Shown here in pieces: positions 6,665 through 22,750 of a stretch of DNA of 28,591 nucleotides. The notes under the pieces were generated by a model. It saw nothing but the letters and a program-made list of their open reading frames with translations. It searched no databases and was not told where the DNA came from. Source of the DNA: a virus; IMG/VR virus record IMGVR_UViG_3300031974_004930, positions 1 through 28,591 of that record, one strand, 5' to 3'. The translations under genes were made by a program, and so were the position numbers. Position 1 is the stretch's first letter; each line of letters begins with the position of its first letter.

Positions 6665-7258
6665 TTATCTATCATTAAAATAATCCAAAGTAATGGCCTT
6701 AAACTTATCTAGATCAATAGATAGGAACGGCCTATACTTGGTTATTATAGTATATTTATCTTCCCAGATCAAGTCTTTTTGTAAAAATTTATTCCAGGTT
6801 TTACTATAATTAACTAGCATATCTAATATGCACATTGTTTCGATACATACCTCATTCCTTAAGTATAGTCTCAACAAATGAGGATGTCCATACTTTTCGA
6901 CAACAAAGTTTTTATCAAAATCTTTATCAAGATTTTCTAACTCATTTTTATATGTATAAGTTAAAGCCTCTTGTCTTTTTTTCCATTTTCTATAAACGTC
7001 TTCTGGTGCTGTTTCTCTCAATTCACCAATCCAGAAGTCTTTATCGCCATCGACGATATTAGCTAATAAAAAATTTTCTACATCTTTATGTTTAGATAAC
7101 TTCATAAAGAAATATTTGTCTTTTCTAATATTAAAAGCATGCTCTGATGCTCTTACCTTACCATTGTATGTAAAGTAATTATAATGTTCTGTAGTAAAAT
7201 GCTGCTTAAGAGCAAGATATTTTATATAAACCTCATAAGGGGATATCGTACTTTTCAT
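6665..7258 (-). CDS. 59: T4 gp59-like replicative helicase loader
   Basis: About 197 aa (T4 gp59 is 217). It aligns well to T4 gp59 by eye: an N-terminal helix (YEVYIKYLALKQHF), then Y-N-Y..YNGKVRAS with RKDKYFFMKLSKH, and later ANIVDGDKDFWIGEL. gp59 loads the gp41 helicase on gp32-coated forked DNA. An in-frame ATG exists at 7321, but 7258 has a clear Shine-Dalgarno (AAGAGGT) and gives the T4-like N terminus, so I chose it; the gene then overlaps the upstream oxygenase by 26 nt. It is directly upstream of gp32, as in T4. Confidence 0.85.
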   Translation of the reverse strand: MKSTISPYEVYIKYLALKQHFTTEHYNYFTYNGKVRASEHAFNIRKDKYFFMKLSKHKDVENFLLANIVDGDKDFWIGELRETAPEDVYRKWKKRQEALTYTYKNELENLDKDFDKNFVVEKYGHPHLLRLYLRNEVCIETMCILDMLVNYSKTWNKFLQKDLIWEDKYTIITKYRPFLSIDLDKFKAITLDYFNDR

Positions 7259-7943
7259 AGTACCTCTTAAATCTTTCGTATCCCTCTGAAGGGATTTGAT
7301 CATTTTCACTCCACCAATCATAAAATTCCTCTAAATCATATAACCATATAATAGTTGAATATCTAATACCTTCAGTAACAGGAGTAACTCCATGATACAT
7401 CCTTGAATCAAATATAACAGCGTCACCTAAATTTAAATCAACATTATTGGAAACTGACTCATAATGATTCTTACGGTCTCCATCAGGTTGAATTTTAAAG
7501 TCACCTCCATTATAATCGCTTTTATTGTTTAGTGCAACTGTTATTGAGACTTTTCTTTTAGGGCGTGAGTTAACAATAAAAAAATCTTCTGGATCAGAAA
7601 TTTTTCTACCACGATTATCTACATGCACGGTATAATCAATATCATCAGTATGATAGTCAAATTTTGCCTTTAACCTGGAATCATACTTAAGAATACTAAT
7701 ATACTCATTAGTATAAAGTTTTTTATTAAAAAGCATATTAGCTTTTTTTATAATTTTAGCAGGAATAGGTCCTAGCTTATGAAATGGTAAAAGAACTTGT
7801 TCTGTTATTCTTGACGCATCAATTGTTACATCAAGACCATTACTTTCTATTGCAGTAGCTCTTTCCCAATCAGTATTAAAACTTGAACAAAGATGATCTA
7901 CTTCTTCTCTTGAAAGAAGATTTCTAATAACAAAACTTTTCAT
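7233..7943 (-). CDS. 2OG-Fe(II) oxygenase, prolyl-4-hydroxylase type
   Basis: 236 aa. It shows the double-stranded beta-helix signature: H98-x-D100 (YHTDDID), distal H184 (MYHGVTPV) and R194 for 2-oxoglutarate (GIRYSTIIW). Between them are ITVALN and the YNGGDFKI turn typical of P4H-like enzymes that need 2-oxoglutarate, O2 and Fe(II). The substrate is unknown; phage members could modify proteins or DNA. The gene sits between gp33 and gp59, genes that are adjacent in T4, and its start abuts the gp33 stop. It ends in an aromatic/acidic tail (EEFYDWWSEND). One of six such folds in the window. Confidence 0.85.
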   Translation of the reverse strand: MKSFVIRNLLSREEVDHLCSSFNTDWERATAIESNGLDVTIDASRITEQVLLPFHKLGPIPAKIIKKANMLFNKKLYTNEYISILKYDSRLKAKFDYHTDDIDYTVHVDNRGRKISDPEDFFIVNSRPKRKVSITVALNNKSDYNGGDFKIQPDGDRKNHYESVSNNVDLNLGDAVIFDSRMYHGVTPVTEGIRYSTIIWLYDLEEFYDWWSENDQIPSEGYERFKRYYEKYDIPL

Positions 7944-8698: not shown

Positions 8699-9160
8699 CT
8701 AAATAGTGCCTACTCTAGGACATTGTTCCGGATATTTTTTAACTTTATCAATTATTTTATAATTATGATAAGCAACTAAAGCTATCATTCCTGTTGCCCA
8801 CATAATGTCTTTATTTTCTACAACATATTTATTATAGTCTGGATGATAAATTGGATATAATGTAATTGCTTTATGTACTACCAATCTTTCTAGTGACGGT
8901 CTCTTTGGTAGTAGAGGATTGGCTTCATATACACATTCATACTGCATTGCTTTATTTGTAGAATCAACATCAGCGATATTTACAAGAGTTAAAGCAGCCC
9001 ACCAATACCAATCAGCTGGTTCTAACCAGTCTTTCTTAATTGACAGTGTAAATGGTGACGGGCTCTGTCTTTCCTTTAACAGTGATGGTATCGACTTTAG
9101 AGAATTCTCCAGATGTACAGCTTTCACGAGTGAAGGATGATAGCAACAAGTCCACCCCAT
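8699..9160 (-). CDS. Putative membrane protein, start unresolved
   Basis: The convincing part begins near 9030 with DWLEPADWYWWAALTLVNIAD, then YEANPLLPKRPS and a C-terminal hydrophobic segment (IMWATGMIALVAYHNYKII). This pattern, an aromatic helix, a Y-E-x-NP-x-L motif and a second membrane segment, recurs in small membrane proteins of marine phages. The start is unclear. In-frame ATGs at 9160, 9208 and 9328 all overlap the cyclase gene by 125-293 nt and lack a Shine-Dalgarno. The frame opened at 9328 has a signal-peptide-like N terminus, but the overlapped cyclase residues are conserved catalytic sequence, so that may be chance. A non-ATG start near 9040 (ATT overlapping the cyclase TAA) or the ATG at 8947 is also possible. 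Confidence 0.5.
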   Translation of the reverse strand: MGWTCCYHPSLVKAVHLENSLKSIPSLLKERQSPSPFTLSIKKDWLEPADWYWWAALTLVNIADVDSTNKAMQYECVYEANPLLPKRPSLERLVVHKAITLYPIYHPDYNKYVVENKDIMWATGMIALVAYHNYKIIDKVKKYPEQCPRVGTI

Positions 9161-10853
9161 CGTAATTGCGTGTTTGGCTTTCGAGTCTAGCTGCAAGGTT
9201 GACGGCATCTCCAATGACGGAATAGTCAAATCTAACTTCTGATCCCATGTTTCCGACGATGCATTCACCTGTATTGACACCAATGCCAACATTGATAGGA
9301 GGAAGGTTGAGAGGTTTAAGTTCTTCATTTAATTTTTTTGTTGCTTCTATTATTTCAATTGACGTTTTAACAGCCATATCGGCATGGTTATCACAGGGTA
9401 AAGGAGCATTCCAAAACGCCATGATACAGTCACCCATATATTTGTCAACCGTTCCACCATTATTTAGTATTATCTTTGTTTGTAAGTCTAAAAATTTATT
9501 AACTAGTTCCACAAGACCTTCCGGATCATCATTATTTTTATAATGCTCACTAATTGGAGTAAAGCCACATATATCCATAAACATAAAACTCATCTCTTTT
9601 CTTTCTCCACCAAGCTTAAGTAATGATGGATCATCTTGTAATTGTTTAACTAAGTCAGGTGAAACATAAGTTCCAAACTGTTTCTTTATCTCCTGCTTTT
9701 GTTTATACGTATTATAAAATTGTACAAATGCGCCATGGCTAAATACTAATACAGTAGATATAATTATCCAGGTTGGATCAAATAAGAGATATTTTGAATA
9801 GAAAACTGAAGAAGAAGCTAAACCAACAAACCCAACGAAAAAGAGGCTGGCAACACCGGATATCCAAACGGCAGCTCGACTTAATAGAACGAGACAAAGA
9901 AGACCAAGAAGTGCTTGAGCGATTAGCTCAAAGAAAAAGAAATGGTTGGGACGAGTAATAACAGTACCGTCTATTATTGTTTTAACTAAGTTAGCTTGAA
10001 TATCGTGAGGATACATTGCACCAACTGGAGTAGGAATTATATTAGTACCTTCAAAGGTAGCTCCTATTATCAAGATACTACCTTCTGGTATACTCTCTCC
10101 CCTTATATCCCCTAAGCTAACGCGTTTAAATTTGTTCCAATATGTGTTGTATACAGTTCCATTATCTAATGTAGAGATCTTATCATACGCAGGGATACGT
10201 ACCCATTCTATACCAACATCGTTAGTTTTTATTTGATATGAAATATCGCCAACGGCAACTCTTAGAATTTCTAAAGCAAAAGAAGGATATACCTTTTTAT
10301 TAGCTGAAACAACTATAGGTACTTTTCTTACTACTCCATCAACATCAGGCAAGGCGCCTATAGAACCGTAACCGTTTGCTGAATTAGCTAGAGGTTCCCA
10401 TGGTATTAAGATACCAGGAAAATCTAAAGTATATTCTTGAGCTGGTACTCTTCCTAAAGTGGCTGTACCGACATGAAGTTCTTTTTCTGTTTGTATTTGA
10501 TTGGTAGGAGCTGTAGCTAATATAGAAGGATAATATTGAAGAGTTTCTGCTAAGTTCCAATCCCCGTTGAATCTATCTTTTTCTGAAAGAATAACAGAAA
10601 GAGCAACGAGGTTATTAGGAGGTATATTATTAAGTTCAAATGCTAGTTCTTTTCTAGGCCAGGGCCATTGACCTAATTTTTGTATAGACTTTTCATCTAT
10701 ATCAACTAATATTATTTGTTCAGATATTTTCTCTTCGTGATTACGTTGAAGCATATCAAAATAATTTAATCTTGTTGCTTCTAATAAAAATGGATCAGCT
10801 ACTCTTAAAGATAAAAGAGCTAGTAATGTTATTCCGGCGTGCCAGAGTTTCAA
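9036..10853 (-). CDS. CHASE2-domain class III adenylate/guanylate cyclase
   Basis: 605 aa with a TTG start (AAGG 7 nt before) directly after the curlin stop. Order: membrane segment about 4-20; CHASE2 extracytoplasmic sensor about 28-300 (signature VDIDEKSIQKLGQWPWPR); three membrane segments about 306-325, 330-351 and 360-380; a cytosolic linker; and a class III cyclase domain about 418-605. Catalytic residues are intact: metal-binding D427 and D475, purine-site K471 and D549, transition-state N552 and R556 (GDAVNLAARLES). K and D at the purine site favour cAMP. It should turn ATP into cAMP in response to a periplasmic or membrane cue. CHASE2 cyclases often sit beside FecR-domain genes in bacteria (from memory), and one is present here. 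Very unusual for a phage. Confidence 0.9.
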   Translation of the reverse strand: MKLWHAGITLLALLSLRVADPFLLEATRLNYFDMLQRNHEEKISEQIILVDIDEKSIQKLGQWPWPRKELAFELNNIPPNNLVALSVILSEKDRFNGDWNLAETLQYYPSILATAPTNQIQTEKELHVGTATLGRVPAQEYTLDFPGILIPWEPLANSANGYGSIGALPDVDGVVRKVPIVVSANKKVYPSFALEILRVAVGDISYQIKTNDVGIEWVRIPAYDKISTLDNGTVYNTYWNKFKRVSLGDIRGESIPEGSILIIGATFEGTNIIPTPVGAMYPHDIQANLVKTIIDGTVITRPNHFFFFELIAQALLGLLCLVLLSRAAVWISGVASLFFVGFVGLASSSVFYSKYLLFDPTWIIISTVLVFSHGAFVQFYNTYKQKQEIKKQFGTYVSPDLVKQLQDDPSLLKLGGERKEMSFMFMDICGFTPISEHYKNNDDPEGLVELVNKFLDLQTKIILNNGGTVDKYMGDCIMAFWNAPLPCDNHADMAVKTSIEIIEATKKLNEELKPLNLPPINVGIGVNTGECIVGNMGSEVRFDYSVIGDAVNLAARLESQTRNYDGVDLLLSSFTRESCTSGEFSKVDTITVKGKTEPVTIYTVN

Positions 10854-11540
10854 TTAGTTACCTTGTGAGACAGAAACAGTACAACCACCTACAGTTTGAC
10901 AATTCTGAGTTAATGAGTATGATTGATTAGTAGATCCTTGCTGTAAAAGATTAAGTGTAGTATTTTCAGAACCTTGTAAGATAATACTAGCTGAATGAGA
11001 ACCAGATCCTTTTTGCATTAAAGATGTATCTGAATAAGATGATGAACCGTAATAATAAACATGACTATAATGTGAGCCTGTTCCTTCTTGCCATGCTTCA
11101 TGATCTACTTCACTAGCATGAATATCAATCCAATGGGTATGTGTACCGCTTTGATAAACGTCTACAGTATTATTATTACCCCATATATGTCTGCCATACG
11201 TTGCACCATTCCATTGTTCAACTGATTCAGTATTACCTGAACCGTCTACATCACCACCCCAACTTAAACCTGAACCCCAATATGAAACCCAACCTATATA
11301 ATTGTCACCACCGTTTTGTTCGAATGTAAAAGAATTATTAGCGTGATCAAATGAAAAATTAATTTCATTACCATATCCAATTTGAGTTACATTTAAGCTA
11401 AAATTATCTCCACTGCCTACTTGCTCTACATGAACATGATTATCATCAGTAGGACCAGCAAAAACTGGTATAGCAATTAACATAGACATTGTCCATGGTC
11501 TTATCCAATATTTAAAAAAGGTGTTCCAAATATTCCTCAT
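10854..11540 (-). CDS. Curlin-like (CsgA/CsgB-type) amyloid repeat protein
   Basis: 228 aa. An N-terminal signal peptide (cut near A28) is followed by repeats with the curlin pattern Q-x-G-x-x-N (EQVGSGDN, QIGYGN, LQGSENTT, QQGSTNQ). E. coli CsgA has five repeats of S-x5-Q-x-G-x2-N-x5-Q that stack into an amyloid fibre. The middle is rich in Gly, Ser, Trp and His. The mature N terminus (TDDN...EQ.G....QIG.GN) matches the other curlin-like protein at 13144-13875, and both have two Cys close together near the C terminus. Start supported by GAGGA. It overlaps the upstream small gene (ATGA) and abuts the cyclase. Predicted to be exported through CsgG. Confidence 0.75.
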   Translation of the reverse strand: MRNIWNTFFKYWIRPWTMSMLIAIPVFAGPTDDNHVHVEQVGSGDNFSLNVTQIGYGNEINFSFDHANNSFTFEQNGGDNYIGWVSYWGSGLSWGGDVDGSGNTESVEQWNGATYGRHIWGNNNTVDVYQSGTHTHWIDIHASEVDHEAWQEGTGSHYSHVYYYGSSSYSDTSLMQKGSGSHSASIILQGSENTTLNLLQQGSTNQSYSLTQNCQTVGGCTVSVSQGN

Positions 11541-11689
11541 CCTTGTCCTCTATATTTCTTCCAAGATCTTTTTTTGTTTTTATTCATTGTAGCTCTAGCT
11601 ACATTATTTCTTCCTTGCGAAGTTTTTTTACCCCTGATTCCAGCAGTAGGTGTATGCATTGATTGATATGATTTAGATTTAGTCGCCAT
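11537..11689 (-). CDS. Small basic protein (50 aa)
   Basis: Lys/Arg-rich throughout, with the central pattern TAGIRGKKTSQGRNNVARAT and a C-terminal KKYRGQG. It starts 1 nt after the stop of the previous gene and its TGA overlaps the curlin ATG (ATGA), so it is tightly coupled. By memory similar peptides occur in marine T4-like phages next to a homologue of the 66-aa upstream neighbour. A nucleic-acid-binding or ribosome-associated role would suit the charge, but nothing proves it. Confidence 0.65.
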   Translation of the reverse strand: MATKSKSYQSMHTPTAGIRGKKTSQGRNNVARATMNKNKKRSWKKYRGQG

Positions 11690-11890
11690 CTATTCCCAAA
11701 CTAATTTAACGCCTCTTCGGGCTAGTTCATTTCTGCATTTCTGCTTTATTTTTGGTTTCTGTCCATTATTTATATAGTCAATAAGTTCCTGTTTAGGAGT
11801 TTGCTTAATATAAAAATGTTCTATAGGTGCATTCGCAGGACTTCCACCTCTTACGAATTTTTTTGCTGACGGTTTAAATTTTGTTGGCAT
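11690..11890 (-). CDS. Conserved hypothetical phage protein (66 aa)
   Basis: Basic N terminus (MPTKFKPSAKKFVRGG), then IEHFYIKQTPKQELIDYINN, ending KCRNELARRGVKLVW. I recognise the HFYIKQTPK...L..YIN pattern from small marine T4-like phage proteins, but no function is known. AGGAG lies 7 nt before the ATG. Predicted soluble and helical. It sits inside the curli locus between the FecR gene and the second curlin gene, so the phage-type genes and the curli genes are interleaved rather than in separate blocks. Confidence 0.75.
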   Translation of the reverse strand: MPTKFKPSAKKFVRGGSPANAPIEHFYIKQTPKQELIDYINNGQKPKIKQKCRNELARRGVKLVWE

Positions 11891-12003
11891 AATAATACTC
11901 CTGCTCTTCTAGCATCTTTTATTTTTGCTTCATCTCTTATCTTTTTTCTTTTATCAGAGATAGGTTTAAGCATCCATAAATATTCTGTTTTAATATTATT
12001 CAT
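11851..12003 (-). CDS. Possible small charged protein (50 aa)
   Basis: Open frame from ATG 12003 with a weak AAAGG upstream, reading MNNIKTEYLWMLKPISDKRK and continuing as a charged helix before ending in the overlap with the 66-aa gene (40 nt). It fills an otherwise empty stretch after the FecR gene. The last dozen residues are Gln/Asn-rich and may be overlap noise. Not recognised; the alternative is a plain intergenic leader. Confidence 0.4.
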   Translation of the reverse strand: MNNIKTEYLWMLKPISDKRKKIRDEAKIKDARRAGVLLCQQNLNRQQKNS

Positions 12004-12032
12004 ATTATATAGCCTTTTATCATAAAAATCAA

Positions 12033-13190
12033 CTAGTTAGCTTGTTTAATTACTATGATTATATCATCACCACCGTTACCAAGAATAGTACCTTGATAGC
12101 CATCAACGTCAGTTGATAAGCTAAAGCTTGCTCCTGCTCCAAATGTAATACTAATAACTCCATTAACATTTCTATAAACTACAAGCTTACCATCTTCTTC
12201 AAATACATTATATTGACTATCATTATTTAAACCAAATTGAGCTCCTTTAAGAGCCCAGCCACCAATATTACCTGTTCCTGCTTGAGCATCACCTAACTCT
12301 TCTGTTGTTCTTAATAACTCTTCTACAGCATCTAATAAATCTGGTAAGAAGTCACCAGCTAGATAATCAATGTCTATTCTACCGTTTCTTGCATCATATT
12401 CTGGGTCGTTAGCATAATCATCATAATCTTTATCTAGTTCATCATATTCTAAAAAGTCAACATCAAGTATACCTTGATCTTGATTCATATCTGCTCTTGC
12501 TTCTTCTTCTATTTGCTCTTTTACTTCAGGTGGTGGATTAACAATAAACATATTATCAATCATATTAGGTGTAATGTTATTAAGCGTTAAAGTTTGACTA
12601 GGAGGTGTATCTAAAGTATTAACCATTGTAGCTTGATATGCTTCATTTAAAGTTATTGTACCACCTAAATTAGTAACTGTTATTTCACCAGATGCGTCCC
12701 CGTTTTCATCTGGTAATAATATAATTAATGACCTACCTATTTCATCTACTGTAGTTGTAAAATCTGTTCCTCTAATACCAATAGTAGCAGTAGGTGTTTT
12801 TATATCTATATTTTTTTTGTTCATTATAGCAAGTTTACCAGATGCAAATCTTGCTGTACCTTGAACAAATTGCATAGTCATTTTTGACTTACTAGGATCC
12901 GGATCATAAATGACTTCGTCTATTAAAATTTTTGTATGTTCAGTAAGAGCTAATTCTGCTTCATCTTTAAATTCAATAAGCATTCTACCGTTAGCAGTTT
13001 CAGCGGTATCATATAACTCTATTTCTGGAAGAAAATCCTTTGATAGGATAAGTTGGTCGTTATTTCTAACTATTTGACCGGCACCGGTCTGCTCAATTAT
13101 GTCACCGATGGGGTCGGCAAAGACCCCATTGATGAGTAACAAATTAAGAATCGTTAGCTGCGTCTTTTTGATTAATTTGTATTGTAGCAT
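12033..13190 (-). CDS. Secreted FecR-domain protein
   Basis: 385 aa. Signal peptide about 1-25 (KK then a hydrophobic run to VFADP). A FecR domain spans about 28-150: GRMLIEFKDEAELALTEH, then VQGTARFASGKL and a strong DIKTPTATIGIRGTDF block, which is the family hallmark. Residues about 225-290 are very acidic with many Asp/Glu/Tyr. The C-terminal part (about 300-385) is Gly-rich and beta-like, ending near NGGDDIIIVIK. Unlike FecR itself it has no obvious membrane anchor to an anti-sigma region, so it is probably periplasmic or exported. Its first 47 nt overlap the end of the curlin gene. The pairing with a CHASE2 cyclase suggests a sensing module; this is inference. Confidence 0.8.
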   Translation of the reverse strand: MLQYKLIKKTQLTILNLLLINGVFADPIGDIIEQTGAGQIVRNNDQLILSKDFLPEIELYDTAETANGRMLIEFKDEAELALTEHTKILIDEVIYDPDPSKSKMTMQFVQGTARFASGKLAIMNKKNIDIKTPTATIGIRGTDFTTTVDEIGRSLIILLPDENGDASGEITVTNLGGTITLNEAYQATMVNTLDTPPSQTLTLNNITPNMIDNMFIVNPPPEVKEQIEEEARADMNQDQGILDVDFLEYDELDKDYDDYANDPEYDARNGRIDIDYLAGDFLPDLLDAVEELLRTTEELGDAQAGTGNIGGWALKGAQFGLNNDSQYNVFEEDGKLVVYRNVNGVISITFGAGASFSLSTDVDGYQGTILGNGGDDIIIVIKQAN

Positions 13191-13875
13191 TATCAGATGT
13201 AATATCTAAATTAATAGTAGCGTTTGGAGTAGAACACCCTGTTGCAGCAGGTGTACATGTACCACTAATTTGGTTAATATCTATATCAGCTGAATCACCA
13301 TTAAGTTCAACAGTTAAGGACTGTGAACCGTCATTTTGTAATGTATTAATGTTATTACTATCTCCAGTAATATCAAAATTCCATGTTATATCATCAGCTT
13401 CCCAATCTATATCAAATATATTAGAACTACCTAATAATATTAGATCAGCATCTAATCTTTCTGCGCTTGCTACATAACCTTGATCTAAATCAAAAGTATT
13501 AGAATCTCCGGTTACGTCAAAGTTAATATTAGATGAATCTGAACTTCCAGTTTCACCAATACTCCAATCTATTTCATTTGAATCGCCAGTAAAATCTAGC
13601 TTATAGTATGAACTATCAGCTGTAACTGAACCAAATAAAATGTTTTGACTGCCTAAAAAATCTAAATCAAACTCTAGAGTAGCACCAGTTATTAACATAT
13701 CTGAGCTTGAACTAGAAAAATCAGTTCCACCTATTTTGTTACCAAAACCAATTTGGTCTATGTATAACTTTAAGGTGTCACCAGTTTGTTCGATTAAAAT
13801 TTCGTTATCATCAGTGGCTTGCGCGAAAACAAAAGAAGTCGACAATAGCAATGCTATACTTATAAGTTTATTCAT
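13144..13875 (-). CDS. Curlin-like repeat protein, acidic
   Basis: 243 aa. Clear signal peptide (about 1-19, cut after VFAQ). The mature part starts TDDNEILIEQTGD and runs as repeated strands of the form (I/V)TGDSNxIDxxQ, with many Asp, Asn, Ser and Thr and hardly any Lys or Arg. Spacing of Q-x-G and G-(D/S)-x-N recalls curlin repeats but is looser than in E. coli CsgA. Two Cys (about 207 and 214) could form a disulfide. The ATG overlaps the CsgG stop by 8 nt, so this is likely a CsgG substrate made with its pore. It differs from the other curlin mainly by its acidity and may be the main subunit or a nucleator. Confidence 0.75.
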   Translation of the reverse strand: MNKLISIALLLSTSFVFAQATDDNEILIEQTGDTLKLYIDQIGFGNKIGGTDFSSSSSDMLITGATLEFDLDFLGSQNILFGSVTADSSYYKLDFTGDSNEIDWSIGETGSSDSSNINFDVTGDSNTFDLDQGYVASAERLDADLILLGSSNIFDIDWEADDITWNFDITGDSNNINTLQNDGSQSLTVELNGDSADIDINQISGTCTPAATGCSTPNATINLDITSDNATIQINQKDAANDS

Positions 13876-14881
13876 TTTCGTTTACCTTTTCTTTGTGAGA
13901 ATGCAAGTCATTCGTACCATTACTTTGGTGCGGATGTCTATGACCATCCTCTATTACCCAGTACCCTCTATCGTGGCCCTGGTAGATTAATTCCAGTACT
14001 CCAGCTTCAATAGCTGTACGTACCGCGTATGTCACCGATTCATTATTTCCCACACCATCTTCAAACTCGACTAATTGAGTTCCTTGCTCGATAAAACGGA
14101 AGACGTCTCCTCCTGAGCCATAACTCAGTAAAGTCTTTCTCGTTTGAACATTTAATAATATTTCACCAGTGAGAACCGACACTGCTCTCATTGAAACCGT
14201 AACAACATCTTGACGATATCGTTTACTATAACCTATTCCTAGAGTACGAGCACCTCGTCCTCCAGATTTGATATTAGTATCATACCCTATTATTCCACCT
14301 TCTATAATTATACCAGCGAATAATAATGGTTGAATACCTTTATCATCTTGACCTGTTTTATTTGCCATATCAGTTCTTGCTGATCTGATAATTTGTCTTT
14401 CTCTAACTAAGTGATCTATTCCATTTCTTTCTACTACTCTAAACCAGGTACCATTACCTGCTGTTTTAAGAGCATCAATAACCATTTCTACACCACCTTG
14501 AGTTACAGCGGTAGAGAAATCAGCTATTCCTTCTCTAGCTTTTCTTTGCCCTGTTTTATCTATAAAATTATAAACGGTAACAACTGGCATTTCTTTTGCT
14601 GGAGGTAGTTGTAATAATTCTAGGTAAGAAGGTAATCTAACTACTTCAGCTTTTTCTACACATATTTGCTTTGTTTCAATATATTTACGAGTACCAGTAT
14701 AACCTTGTTTGACTATACCAAATAAATCATCGTTTAATATACCATCAGAATCAAAGTCAGTATTCCATCCTTGGGCATATTTACCTTCTCCGTATTCACA
14801 GTTAGCTGGACCCTCAGACCACTGAGGCATTTGTGCACAACCTTGTAAGAGTAATACTAAAGCTAAAAGATATCTAACCAT
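13868..14881 (-). CDS. csgG: CsgG-like curli secretion pore lipoprotein
   Basis: 337 aa (E. coli CsgG 277). Lipobox LLQGC with lipidated C15. The CsgG domain spans about 99-308 and matches E. coli by eye: VYNFIDKTGQ, FSTAVTQGG, RQIIRSA, then GGIIGYDTNIKSGGRGAR, LGIGYSKRYRQDVVTVSMR, TGEILLNVQTRKTLLSY and VFRFIE. CsgG forms a nine-subunit outer-membrane channel for curli subunits. Differences: about 50 extra residues after the lipobox with a DFDSDG motif, a His-rich C-terminal tail (about 312-330), and a changed constriction loop: Phe is kept (F122), Asn is Asp (D121), and the E. coli Tyr has no clear match. It overlaps csgF and the curlin gene by 8 nt each. Confidence 0.95.
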   Translation of the reverse strand: MVRYLLALVLLLQGCAQMPQWSEGPANCEYGEGKYAQGWNTDFDSDGILNDDLFGIVKQGYTGTRKYIETKQICVEKAEVVRLPSYLELLQLPPAKEMPVVTVYNFIDKTGQRKAREGIADFSTAVTQGGVEMVIDALKTAGNGTWFRVVERNGIDHLVRERQIIRSARTDMANKTGQDDKGIQPLLFAGIIIEGGIIGYDTNIKSGGRGARTLGIGYSKRYRQDVVTVSMRAVSVLTGEILLNVQTRKTLLSYGSGGDVFRFIEQGTQLVEFEDGVGNNESVTYAVRTAIEAGVLELIYQGHDRGYWVIEDGHRHPHQSNGTNDLHSHKEKVNENE

Positions 14882-15353
14882 TGTCTGGATCTTGTCCGAA
14901 GTTTCCTGTACCTACTGGTATCTCTATTACTGTTTCAGTACCGTCTTCTGATACTACCGTTAATCTTATAAACTCTGCACCTGATTCATCCGTAATAACT
15001 TCCCAAGTAATAATATTACCTTCTAAAGCAAATGATCCGAACCCTGCAGGGCTATCATTAGCAAACATTGATTCAACTAATTGTTTAGCGAACTGTGCGT
15101 AAATTCTTGATTCTAAGTTACGAATGAACTTAGCTAAGGTGGTATTTTCTGCTTCTCTCTCAGCTGTTTTTCTAGCTGATTCAAGAGCTTCTTGTATCGC
15201 TTTCTTTCTTGAGTGTTCTTGGTTTTCTATTGTAAGGTAATGCGCACCCTGACCAATTCCACTGAATGATGGATTTTTAAACTCATGGACTATTTCCTGA
15301 GCAAATACTGATGATGTAATTAAAAATAAGCTACTTACGACTACCTTTTTCAT
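14874..15353 (-). CDS. csgF: CsgF-like curli accessory protein
   Basis: 159 aa (E. coli CsgF 138). Signal peptide about 1-18 (cut after VFA). The mature N terminus, EFKNPSFSGIGQG, keeps the F-x-N-P-x-F-x-G signature of the CsgF peptide that plugs into the CsgG channel and makes a second constriction. A helix follows (about 45-98) and then a beta-rich C terminus (NIITWEVITD, FIRLTVVSEDGTETVIEI), as in the E. coli head domain that couples CsgB to the pore. The helix is longer than in E. coli. AAAGGA lies before the ATG; the end overlaps csgG. This is the order csgF-csgG, with no csgE recognised. Confidence 0.88.
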   Translation of the reverse strand: MKKVVVSSLFLITSSVFAQEIVHEFKNPSFSGIGQGAHYLTIENQEHSRKKAIQEALESARKTAEREAENTTLAKFIRNLESRIYAQFAKQLVESMFANDSPAGFGSFALEGNIITWEVITDESGAEFIRLTVVSEDGTETVIEIPVGTGNFGQDPDNG

Positions 15354-15636
15354 TGACTTTTTCCTTTAATTTTTCCACTTCTCTGTATTCTAATACTACA
15401 TTAACTTTTTGTTGAAGTCGAATAAGATCTTGATCAAGCATTCTAGTTTGATCAATTACTCTTATCAATGCCATGTGCATTTCTTCTATTTGAGGTTCAA
15501 TATGTTCTCCAATGAACCACCATACATAATAAATGAAATACCCCATACCTATTGACATTATAACGGGAAAGCCATAATCATTAACAAGTTGTACTAAAGT
15601 AGGATCCTCAGATGCGACTAAAACTATATCATCCAT
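15331..15636 (-). CDS. Small single-pass membrane protein with coiled coil (second copy)
   Basis: 101 aa. A short N terminus is followed by a membrane segment about 22-43 (FPVIMSIGMGYFIYYVWWFI) and then a long amphipathic helix (about 50-100). Layout resembles small BhlA/UviB-like holin-type or YvrJ-like phage proteins, but no function is proven. It looks paralogous to the next gene: both have G-x-P-(I/V) before the membrane segment and MG(Y/F)FI(Y/F) inside it. Its start overlaps the upstream stop (TAATG) and its end overlaps csgF by 23 nt, so it is part of the curli transcript. Confidence 0.75.
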   Translation of the reverse strand: MDDIVLVASEDPTLVQLVNDYGFPVIMSIGMGYFIYYVWWFIGEHIEPQIEEMHMALIRVIDQTRMLDQDLIRLQQKVNVVLEYREVEKLKEKVNEKGSRK

Positions 15637-15932
15637 TAGTCTCTCCTTACATCCAACTTGTCATCTTCGATAAAATTCTCAGCACGAGCAATTCTTTCGA
15701 TATCGGGTTTTAACTCAAGTGCACTACTAACAAGAAGATCTATTTTAATCATCTCATTACTCATAGTGCGTGCTCTATTTTCAAGCATTTTACAGAAACC
15801 TGTTAACGTCTTAATATCGTCAACAATTCCTTCTAGAATTTGTTTAATAACGGTAAAAATAAAGAAGCCCATCACTAAGGATCCAGCAATGGGAGCTCCG
15901 AGTTCGCCGACTAATTCTAAAAAGGTTTCCAT
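15636..15932 (-). CDS. Small single-pass membrane protein with coiled coil (first copy)
   Basis: 98 aa. Membrane segment about 13-35 (GAPIAGSLVMGFFIFTVIKQ), then a helix (about 38-85) with likely coiled coil and a charged tail ending DDKLDVRRD. Paralogue of the following gene. It is first in the curli set, 27 nt after the carbamoyltransferase stop. Its weak AGG ribosome site is in a hairpin (15935-15950), so translation of the first curli-set gene may be damped. The helix would be cytoplasmic or periplasmic depending on topology, which I cannot fix. A holin-like role is possible. Confidence 0.75.
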   Translation of the reverse strand: METFLELVGELGAPIAGSLVMGFFIFTVIKQILEGIVDDIKTLTGFCKMLENRARTMSNEMIKIDLLVSSALELKPDIERIARAENFIEDDKLDVRRD

Positions 15933-15934
15933 AT

Positions 15935-15950
15935 TGCCTATATTTAGGCA
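15935..15950 (-). promoter_or_regulatory. Hairpin over the ribosome site of the first curli-set gene
   Basis: Perfect inverted repeat TGCCTA-AATA-TAGGCA in the 27-nt gap before the ATG at 15932. The 3' arm ends 2 nt before the ATG and contains AGG, the only Shine-Dalgarno-like bases. There is no T run, so it is not an intrinsic terminator. The loop side reads CCTAAATA, one mismatch from the NATAAATA late octamer, so a degenerate late promoter is also possible. Confidence 0.5.
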
Positions 15951-18879: not shown

Positions 18880-19007
18880 TCTTCATAAATGAAAGGGTCA
18901 TTCTTTCTCATTCTCCATAATTTATATTTAACTAATAACTTTCTATAAATTCTTTGAAAGAAATTTAGTTTCACTTTTTTATTTTTAAACTTTGATAATT
19001 CATCCAT
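18876..19007 (-). CDS. Small basic protein (43 aa)
   Basis: Reads MDELSKFKNKKVKLN, a basic amphipathic helix (FFQRIYRKLLVKYKLWRMRK) and a C-terminal NDPFIYEE. It is coupled at both ends: ATG overlaps the oxygenase stop (TAATG) and TGA overlaps the SGNH ATG (ATGA). The K-L-W-R...DPFIYE ending is familiar from tiny marine T4-like phage proteins. Function unknown; possible membrane-surface helix. Confidence 0.65.
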   Translation of the reverse strand: MDELSKFKNKKVKLNFFQRIYRKLLVKYKLWRMRKNDPFIYEE

Positions 19008-19660
19008 TATTTAAGCCTTTTAAAATTATCACCATATAAAGAGACAAAAGACGTATTCTCTATATCTTCTGTTGCTACAGTTTTTCTTTCTTCACTTTTA
19101 GGAAAACCAAGCGGGTCTTGATAAGCAATTGAAAAACGTCCATAACCTTCATGTATTTTAGTAGGTGCAATTCCTGCATGATCAATATTGCCTGCAAAGA
19201 TAACTACTCTACCAGGTTTAGGATTAACACAATCAATTACATTATGTTCTTCATCTGCAAATTTAGTTTCACCACCCCAGTTATAATCCCAGCACATATT
19301 AGGATATACCATATAAGTTAAACCCTCTGGGTTATTAGGTGAGTCTTTATGAAACATAGGTGAGTCACCAAACTTAAAGTTATTCATTAAAGCTCTAGAG
19401 AATAATGGTGTTTCAATACCAATCTCTAATAACCTTGTTTGCATTATATCATTTATATCTTGAATTATAGCATGAAACCCAACCCATTGTTCCCATTTAA
19501 GAGATTTACATAATGTGGCTGACTTAGCTCCATATTCTTGCATATCATAACCTAGTCCCCAGAAAGGGTAACTTGCAAAATAGTTATCCATTATTTCTAA
19601 TTGAGCATCAGAAAAGATGCCATCGACCACAGTACATACTTTAGATTTTATCACCTTCAT
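19007..19660 (-). CDS. 2OG-Fe(II) oxygenase
   Basis: 217 aa. H104-x-D106 (MFHKDSP), a Trp-Gly-Gly-Glu turn (NWGGETKF), distal H161 (NIDHAGIAP) and R175 (GRFSIAYQ) make a complete Fe(II)/2-oxoglutarate site. The type resembles phage hydroxylases near P4H/PiuC families. Its substrate is unknown. It has a perfect TATAAATA late octamer 5 nt before the ATG and no Shine-Dalgarno, so it may be made late from a leaderless mRNA, unlike the neighbouring upstream genes. The stop overlaps the next small gene. Confidence 0.88.
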   Translation of the reverse strand: MKVIKSKVCTVVDGIFSDAQLEIMDNYFASYPFWGLGYDMQEYGAKSATLCKSLKWEQWVGFHAIIQDINDIMQTRLLEIGIETPLFSRALMNNFKFGDSPMFHKDSPNNPEGLTYMVYPNMCWDYNWGGETKFADEEHNVIDCVNPKPGRVVIFAGNIDHAGIAPTKIHEGYGRFSIAYQDPLGFPKSEERKTVATEDIENTSFVSLYGDNFKRLK

Positions 19661-20533: not shown

Positions 20534-20708
20534 TATCTACTCCTGGTTCATGCATTAATTTTATTATTATAAATTTACCTTCTTTTCTACCTTGACTATA
20601 AAGCATATCATACATTTGACCTGCTCCGTCTTTATGCCCTTGTCTATAACCAATATACTGCGCAAGCATACCTATACCAATTACCGTCGCTACTAATAAT
20701 TCATTCAT
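20517..20708 (-). CDS. Small membrane-anchored protein (63 aa)
   Basis: N-terminal membrane segment about 3-20 (LLVATVIGIGMLAQYIGYR), then a Gly/Lys/Asp-rich soluble part with two near-repeats (QGHKDGAGQMYDML, QGRKEGKF). GAAGG lies before the ATG. It overlaps both neighbours (8 nt and 17 nt). Not recognised; small N-anchored proteins of this kind are common in T4-like early regions. Confidence 0.7.
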   Translation of the reverse strand: MNELLVATVIGIGMLAQYIGYRQGHKDGAGQMYDMLYSQGRKEGKFIIIKLMHEPGVDNGRNF

Positions 20709-21207
20709 ATCTACCTTCCTCTAATCCTATCGAGAAACCAAACCTGGCTCCTTGAGGTTCGGGATCATGATATACACCGCACGGTATATAAAGTAAATCA
20801 CCGTTATATAAATTATAACTACTTCCGTCATCAAATGCAAATTTAGTTCTACCAGAACCTTGTATAAAAAACACGTTAGCTGTATCTTTATGCCTTCCAT
20901 GTGAGCCTGATTCAGCAGATAATGAGCCATAAAGATGTACTGACATATCACCAGTACGGGAAGGGAATGTATTTTGTAATTGTTCGGCAAGATCTACAAT
21001 ACTTTGAAACTTATCGTTTAAGAAGTGAATAAGAAAACCACCTGCTTTCATATACCTTGTTAATTGCTTATCCATATTAATAAGTTCAATAACATCATCC
21101 CACTTATAGTTAAGAGTAGGGACAGCATTAGGTATATAAAAAGGGGTGCGGCTGTTAACCGCATCCCTTAGATCTTTTGAGTTTAACCAATTAGGCAGCT
21201 TCTGCAT
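20701..21207 (-). CDS. Cupin/JmjC-like 2OG-type oxygenase
   Basis: 168 aa. After a helical N-terminal part, the cupin core has SHGRHKDTANVFFIQ (H106, D108), GRTKFAFDDG, GDLLYIPCGVYHDPE (distal H147) and R155 (GARFGFSIGLE). This resembles the JmjC/ROXA-type cupins that use Fe(II) and 2-oxoglutarate to hydroxylate proteins. A metal-binding sugar or small-molecule cupin is an alternative, since the 2-oxoglutarate site cannot be proven by eye. Its start lies in the end of the DUF932 gene (17-nt overlap). Confidence 0.7.
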   Translation of the reverse strand: MQKLPNWLNSKDLRDAVNSRTPFYIPNAVPTLNYKWDDVIELINMDKQLTRYMKAGGFLIHFLNDKFQSIVDLAEQLQNTFPSRTGDMSVHLYGSLSAESGSHGRHKDTANVFFIQGSGRTKFAFDDGSSYNLYNGDLLYIPCGVYHDPEPQGARFGFSIGLEEGRYE

Positions 21208-22204: not shown

Positions 22205-22750
22205 TTACCAAATAATTCCATTTCTTTGTCTTAATCTAATTCTATCTTTTGAATGATATTGAATATTAAAACATAATCTTTCTTTTGAATCTTTTTGTGG
22301 GAGTGGTCTATGATACCACCAAAATGGCATTAAGTATAGTTTATTATTTTCTACTTGAATTATTTCTTCTTTAAATTTATTAATAGATGGATTAACATTA
22401 AGTAGTTGAAGCCCACCACCTTCTTTAGGAACATCTAAATAAAAAACTGTATTTAATTCTGCTTCAGGGTGATTGTGCCATACTGATCTACCGTTTGTAT
22501 TATTTTGAGCATATAACCAAACTTTAAATTCAGGTTGAGATAGAGGGAGGGGATGAAAGTGATAGCTTACAATATCAGTCCATAATGGTTTTATAATATC
22601 TAGTACAGCTTGTATTTTTACCTTTTTACTATACCCTGAACCATCACCTTTTTTTAAAGCATTATAGTAGTCACTTATAATCTGATCTTTAAATGGAGAT
22701 AATAAATCATTAATAGGAAATTTAGCAGAAAAAGGATGAGCTTGTTTCAT
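22205..22750 (-). CDS. Putative 2OG-Fe(II) oxygenase (PF13759/TIGR02466 type)
   Basis: 181 aa. Pattern VWHNHPEAELNTVFYLDVP, then GGGLQLLNVNP and LMPFWWYHRPL, R158 (KERLCFNIQY). The family has H-x-H spacing here (H92, H94) rather than H-x-D; distal H147 is present. Members seem common in marine phages, substrates unknown. It starts over the stop of the previous gene (TAATG) and ends just before the 22170-22198 promoter, so it closes the operon 23827-22205. Confidence 0.75.
   Translation of the reverse strand: MKQAHPFSAKFPINDLLSPFKDQIISDYYNALKKGDGSGYSKKVKIQAVLDIIKPLWTDIVSYHFHPLPLSQPEFKVWLYAQNNTNGRSVWHNHPEAELNTVFYLDVPKEGGGLQLLNVNPSINKFKEEIIQVENNKLYLMPFWWYHRPLPQKDSKERLCFNIQYHSKDRIRLRQRNGIIW

Follow-up and report, generated by a model that had tools for sequence, protein, structure and literature searches.

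A 28,591-base virus record (IMG/VR record IMGVR_UViG_3300031974_004930; the whole stretch is called the window below) carries nine consecutive genes on its minus strand, from position 15932 down to 8699: tmA, tmB, csgF, csgG, curlin 1, fecR, curlin 2, a CHASE2 adenylate cyclase gene and a gene for a DUF5658 membrane protein. Together they appear to make up a type VIII secretion operon of the curli type, carried by a T4-like phage akin to the pelagimyophages, and we consider it rather probable that this operon encodes a curlin export system that is expressed late and acts at the surface of the infected cell. A fuller reading, to which we give about even chances, is that two bacterial modules, one for curli export and one of FecR with a CHASE2-cyclase, have become a late surface-amyloid system, leaderless in many relatives, with the addition of a DUF5658 protein in which the signal peptide and the periplasmic portion arose through overprinting of the cyclase's catalytic domain.

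The gene set itself is already known from phages that infect SAR11 and OM43 bacteria. We add two points: the operon seems to be turned on late during infection, and part of its last gene is encoded within the preceding one. The available portions of the literature on these phages contain no mention of the late-promoter motif, the DUF5658 overprint, the FecR-cyclase module or the lack of a kinase domain in the proteins called "HK".

Export genes and their conservation among phages

The pore gene csgG (13868–14881) encodes a protein of 337 aa that matches PF03783 (E = 3e-48) and the E. coli CsgG structures (phmmer, E = 7e-48) and has a readable lipobox, LQGC within LLLQGCAQ, as expected of an outer-membrane lipoprotein pore. 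The accessory protein CsgF (14874–15353, 159 aa) has the FKNPSFSG motif, a longer alpha-helical middle part and a match to PF10614 (E = 1.5e-11); a sequence search matched it to no solved structure. CsgG, CsgF, FecR and the cyclase all score above the Pfam cut-offs, and signal peptides can be read in the sequences of CsgF, FecR and both curlins. An export function of the predicted system is well supported by this homology: nonamers of the CsgG lipoprotein with CsgF would form an outer-membrane channel, through which the two Sec-exported curlins would pass and then assemble, on the infected cell, into amyloid-like fibres.

The curlins are assigned at the level of families. Curlin 1 (13144–13875, 243 aa, acidic GxxN repeats) and curlin 2 (10854–11540, 228 aa) match PF07012 with E values of 0.014 and 4.6e-4, respectively, each below the Pfam cut-off, and matches at E ≤ 0.01 were obtained for 32 of 36 curlin 1 relatives and 10 of 27 curlin 2 relatives. 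HMMs built from the phage curlins match bacterial curlins encoded beside csgG with up to 56 bits, and the [hydrophobic]xxxGxxN repeats of curlin 1 exceed those of 5000 shuffles. AlphaFold2 predicts a beta-solenoid for both curlin 1 (pLDDT 77) and curlin 2 (pLDDT 81). VIA-align lists the E. coli CsgA fibril (8enq_A) among the matches of the curlin 2 model (Z 11.8, 109 residues, rmsd 8.5). The models show the solenoid class and not curlin identity, because Foldseek returned no significant match for them and SufB/SufD and other beta-helices rank above CsgA in VIA-align.

The initial annotation had described a phage-encoded curli locus with a pore, an accessory protein, two curlin-repeat proteins behind signal peptides, FecR and a cyclase, set among T4-like phage genes. 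The HMM searches that it suggested bear this out for CsgG and CsgF directly and for the curlins through their families, HMMs, repeat shuffles and solenoid models, and its coordinates are right. The neighbouring genes are indeed T4-like (gp32-type SSB, gp59-type helicase loader, gp4-type head closure, DNA end protector, tail tube, baseplate hub, lysozyme). The gene overlaps of 0–47 nt that it gave leave out two things, some 490 nt lying between fecR and curlin 2 (11541–12032) and a 293-nt overlap of the cyclase with the last ORF (8699–9328), and the genes at 15331–15932 and the last gene have to be added as members of the conserved operon. The stretch at 11541–12032 is an insertion of small phage ORFs, for example one of 66 aa at 11690–11890 that is found at the same position in four other viral contigs (L007, L010, L011, L072).

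Three features of the export genes count against the proposed export system. CsgE, CsgC and CsgD were not seen in the window, a 28.6-kb fragment, with neither CsgE nor CsgD among the operon proteins compared with Pfam; the curlin sequences are acidic, have diverged and contain few of the canonical Gln residues; and the constriction Tyr of E. coli CsgG (PYPASNF) is not kept, the aligned phage segment being REGIADF. Bacterial curli systems (E. coli csgBAC/csgDEFG, alphaproteobacterial csgF-csgG-curlin) share with the phage locus the CsgG, CsgF and curlin repeat families, and differ from it in these missing csgC, csgD and csgE genes.

We scanned viral contigs for CsgG and kept 80 of the 156 relatives found. 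Where these contigs are of sufficient length, they repeat the order tmA-tmB-csgF-csgG-curlin1-fecR-curlin2-cyclase, often with DUF5658 after the cyclase. In a separate scan with tmA/tmB, the genes tmB-csgF-csgG lie downstream of tmA in 65 of 66 testable loci; one apparent tmA/tmB locus lacking csgG (L273) was dropped, its csgG being elsewhere on the same contig. The same operon is present in the complete isolate genomes HTVC008M and Melnitz. The initial annotation had raised the possibility of a host contig misassembled onto phage, in favour of which stands only the bacterial origin of the families. We reject this explanation as having a negligible chance of being correct, because about 80 metagenomic viral contigs keep the gene order and the two isolates carry the operon; furthermore, five contigs (L007, L010, L011, L014, L072) share flanks with the window on both sides.

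The operon was reported in pelagimyophages by Zaragoza-Solas et al. 2020 (PMC7029224) and in Melnitz by Buchholz et al. 2022 (PMC9004378), and the available text of Wittmers et al. 2022 (PMC9599517) describes CsgF-CsgG-CsgA/B-FecR-CsgA/B-adenylate cyclase in myo- and podo-pelagiphages. The view that the full set with sensor and cyclase was new is therefore wrong, since HTVC008M and Melnitz carry the cassette and the last of these papers described it. The HTVC008M locus (NC_020484), like the pelagiphage system as far as the available text of PMC9599517 describes it, agrees with the window in having two small ORFs, csgF, csgG, curlin, fecR, curlin and CHASE2-cyclase; its CsgG is about 51% identical to that of the window over 223 aa, and in contrast to HTVC008M, the window carries a DUF5658 gene that overprints the cyclase, together with the small-ORF insertion between fecR and curlin 2. 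Methylophilales phage Melnitz EXVC044M (MZ577097) likewise has the cassette with annotated FecR, two curlin-repeat proteins and a cyclase, but no DUF5658 gene was found in it and its cyclase is of another catalytic type (VSTAAR). It should be noted that the text of PMC9004378 describes Melnitz as being without csgA/csgB, yet the record MZ577097 annotates curlin-repeat genes. As judged by sequence comparison, the window phage is itself a new member of the group, because its CsgG is at most 51% identical to those of the isolates within our phage collection and the megablast matches listed cover tRNA only. Curli operons are widespread in marine phages, and the SAR11 and OM43 hosts are reported to be without them.

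Late-promoter motif, timing and the proposed role

The motif ATAAATA occurs within 60 nt upstream of tmA, with which the operon begins; 41 of 47 distinct relatives have it there, with 1 expected from shuffles, and its frequency upstream of tmB, csgF, csgG, curlin 1, fecR and the cyclase is about that of chance. In 22 of the 41, exactly 12 nt separate the first A of the motif from the A of the ATG. In the late promoters of T4, an 8-bp box occupies −13 to −6 of the transcript start (PMC2988020), here TATAAATA, and because the spacing matches a box beginning at −13, transcripts in many relatives are probably leaderless, starting at the tmA start codon. In many relatives a terminator-like stem with a T-run stands right ahead of the box. 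In Melnitz, the late motif TATAAATA lies just before tmA, the same box precedes capsid, prohead, tail, sheath, baseplate and fibre genes, and a late sigma factor and a coactivator are annotated. The window's own site (CTAAATA, 15941–15947, 15 nt before the tmA start) is a variant of the NATAAATA of its relatives, off the consensus and not at the leaderless spacing; this, too, counts against the proposed system.

Overall, judging from the motif, the operon looks to be transcribed late in infection, presumably by a phage sigma factor of the gp55 type. With late transcription, the likely role would therefore be on the surface of a cell that is already committed, and not in the support of early replication. 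The predicted timing separates the published hypotheses, with uptake for replication on one side and surface effects or lysis on the other. Most conjectural of all is the benefit to the phage: the fibres may shield the cell against superinfection, or they may hold cells and debris near the new virions. Superinfection defence and clumping have been proposed before (PMC7029224 and the available text of PMC9599517), and the absence of visible clumping from cultures infected with Melnitz (PMC9004378) counts against the proposed system.

Late timing would also suit a pore that times lysis. The two small genes at the head of the operon, tmA (15636–15932, 98 aa, phrog_18771 E = 2.5e-23) and its paralogue tmB (15331–15636, 101 aa, phrog_18771 E = 1.4e-26, in the same neighbourhood), each encode one membrane helix, N-terminal in tmA, and a coiled coil, and they nearly always precede csgF. 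The authors of PMC9004378 proposed a lysis-linked CsgG-CsgF pore; to this secretin- or pinholin-like pore we add tmA and tmB as holin-like partners, with the curlins as plugs or relics. The phage lysozyme gene right downstream of the operon in the window (PF00959, E = 1.6e-12) fits such a role, but lysozyme directly adjoins the operon mainly in the close relatives of the window, and tmA and tmB match no holin family (only YvrJ at E = 8.4). Furthermore, curlins, FecR and cyclase, which keep a strict order in nearly all loci, would be needless for a simple lysis pore. This is the main rival to curlin export, and we regard it as unlikely.

From their position, tmA and tmB are probably the genes termed "histidine kinase" in the literature, since the available text of Wittmers et al. 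2022 (PMC9599517) places "HK, sometimes two" there and its order HK - CsgF - CsgG - CsgA/B - FecR - CsgA/B - AC is otherwise that of the window. These proteins of 98 and 101 aa show no kinase domain: no HisKA or HATPase Pfam domain was found at E ≤ 10 in 12 members.

The FecR and CHASE2-cyclase module

The FecR-domain protein (12033–13190, 385 aa; PF04773 E = 1.3e-9, phrog_37870 E = 1.6e-64) is predicted to be periplasmic, and the cyclase (9036–10853, 605 aa, TTG start) joins a CHASE2 domain (PF05226, 1e-36) to a class III catalytic domain (PF00211, 5e-19). In the alignment, D427, D475, K471, N552 and R556 are in place, that is, the two metal-binding Asp, the adenine-selecting Lys and the transition-state Asn and Arg of a class III adenylate cyclase. 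The Melnitz-type cyclase has Ser where the catalytic Asn is expected, and we count this against the proposed system as well.

A FecR relative is encoded in 51 of 142 alphaproteobacterial genomes, and 47 of those 51 have a strong CHASE2-cyclase match; the two genes lie within 5 kb of each other in 23 of the 47. The same pairing of a FecR-domain gene with a nearby CHASE2 class III cyclase is found in Campylobacterota (PMC9239204), where the clusters are not joined to csgG/csgF, in contrast to the phage operon. Conversely, neither FecR nor the cyclase was found beside csgG in 71 bacterial csgG loci searched with phage-derived HMMs, or near csgG in the 51 alphaproteobacterial genomes compared by contig and coordinate, 6 of which have CsgG. 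Going by these loci and genomes, we reject the idea that curli operons of bacteria ordinarily include FecR or the cyclase, in agreement with the available text of Wittmers et al. 2022 (PMC9599517), according to which FecR, histidine kinase and cyclase do not belong to bacterial T8SS operons. FecR with the CHASE2-cyclase is a separate bacterial module, and because it stands apart from csgG in the bacterial loci and genomes examined, the phages appear to have brought two modules of bacteria together in one operon.

This gives a concrete signalling hypothesis: periplasmic FecR and the inner-membrane CHASE2-cyclase would act as a sensor-to-cAMP pair, which most likely reports on the exported subunits or on the envelope. 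The uptake hypothesis (PMC7029224 and the available text of PMC9599517) instead makes the pore a channel for nutrients or cofactors entering the infected cell and FecR an iron-linked sensor. A channel with no CsgE gate seen would suit uptake, but FecR is paired here with a CHASE2-cyclase and not with FecA/FecI, the two conserved exported curlins are left unexplained, and the late-promoter motif argues against early support of replication, so that we consider uptake improbable, more so than a lysis pore.

The DUF5658 gene overprinted on the cyclase

The last gene (8699–9328) starts inside the cyclase gene, and the overlap of 293 nt (9036–9328) covers the last 97 cyclase codons, with the +1 frame encoding the DUF5658 N-terminus. 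This overprinted part opens with a signal-peptide-like segment. PF18902 matches 10 of 12 DUF5658 relatives (best E = 2.5e-5); the window copy itself has no match.

Over these 97 codons the +1 frame has 0 stops in 22 distinct cyclases. Synonymous recoding gives a mean of 7–9 stops for each and never zero in 500 trials each, although the 22 cyclases are mutually related and are not 22 independent tests. Cyclases without this overlap (HTVC008M, L064, L085, L089) have 4–7 stops in the same frame; no DUF5658 match was found in HTVC008M, L064 or L085, and L089 has a weak match overlapping by at most 47 nt. A DUF5658 gene is recognised behind 21 of the 22 cyclases, and the remaining one (L007) likewise has an open frame, although its DUF5658 gene did not score. 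Synonymous codons in the overlap differ in about a third of comparisons. We base the case for overprinting on stop avoidance, because suppression at synonymous sites is weak (0.32 vs. 0.38, P = 0.04) and another part of the gene shows a comparable drop. On this evidence from reading frames, the DUF5658 gene is overprinted on the 3′ end of the cyclase gene. An antisense ORF in the cyclase (codons 300–359), likewise stop-free in the 22, is unsupported, with just 1.3–3.4 stops expected in each.

We regard the overprinted DUF5658 gene as a clear case of dual coding, of a kind that ordinary gene calling can miss. In a second lineage (L015, L021, L031, L049, L083), DUF5658 overlaps the cyclase by just 26 nt and has a signal-peptide-like N-terminus of its own; the cyclases of this lineage are longer and, where aligned, have another type of catalytic domain.

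Promoter-like box upstream of tmA

A late-promoter-like box lies at positions 15941–15947 of the window, upstream of tmA, the first gene of the curli-type operon, and in many of the related loci L008–L083 such a box, NATAAATA, is found 5′ of this gene. The spacing from the box to the start codon of tmA is 12 nt in many relatives, which suggests late transcripts that lack a leader. A small number of curlin 2, csgF, and cyclase genes likewise have the box at this 12-nt distance.

Variation within the operon

The cyclases of L003 (Methylophilales phage Melnitz), L031, and L083 carry a different type of catalytic domain, whose motif VSTAAR has Ser at the position of the catalytic Asn, and they are extended at the C-terminus; their CHASE2 part is nevertheless still homologous, and this looks like domain exchange. 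At positions 9036–9328, a single DNA segment encodes, in two frames, the 3′ end of the cyclase and the signal peptide of the DUF5658 protein, and the overlapping reading frame is free of stops in 22 distinct sequences. Inserted small phage ORFs separate fecR and curlin 2 at positions 11541–12032, an insertion common to the window and its close relatives.

Genomic surroundings and database records

The operon in the window is surrounded by several genes of the 2OG-Fe(II) oxygenase or JmjC type (positions 7233–7943, 19007–19660, 20701–21207, and 22205–22750). According to the text of the Melnitz paper (PMC9004378), csgA/csgB are absent from this phage, whereas its GenBank record annotates two curlin-repeat proteins within the operon. 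In the genome collection, contigs with phage curli genes (L084–L091) were sorted into bacterial MAGs labeled Synechococcus, Sphingobacteriales, Flavobacteriales, Rhodobacteraceae, and Pelagibacter, among others.
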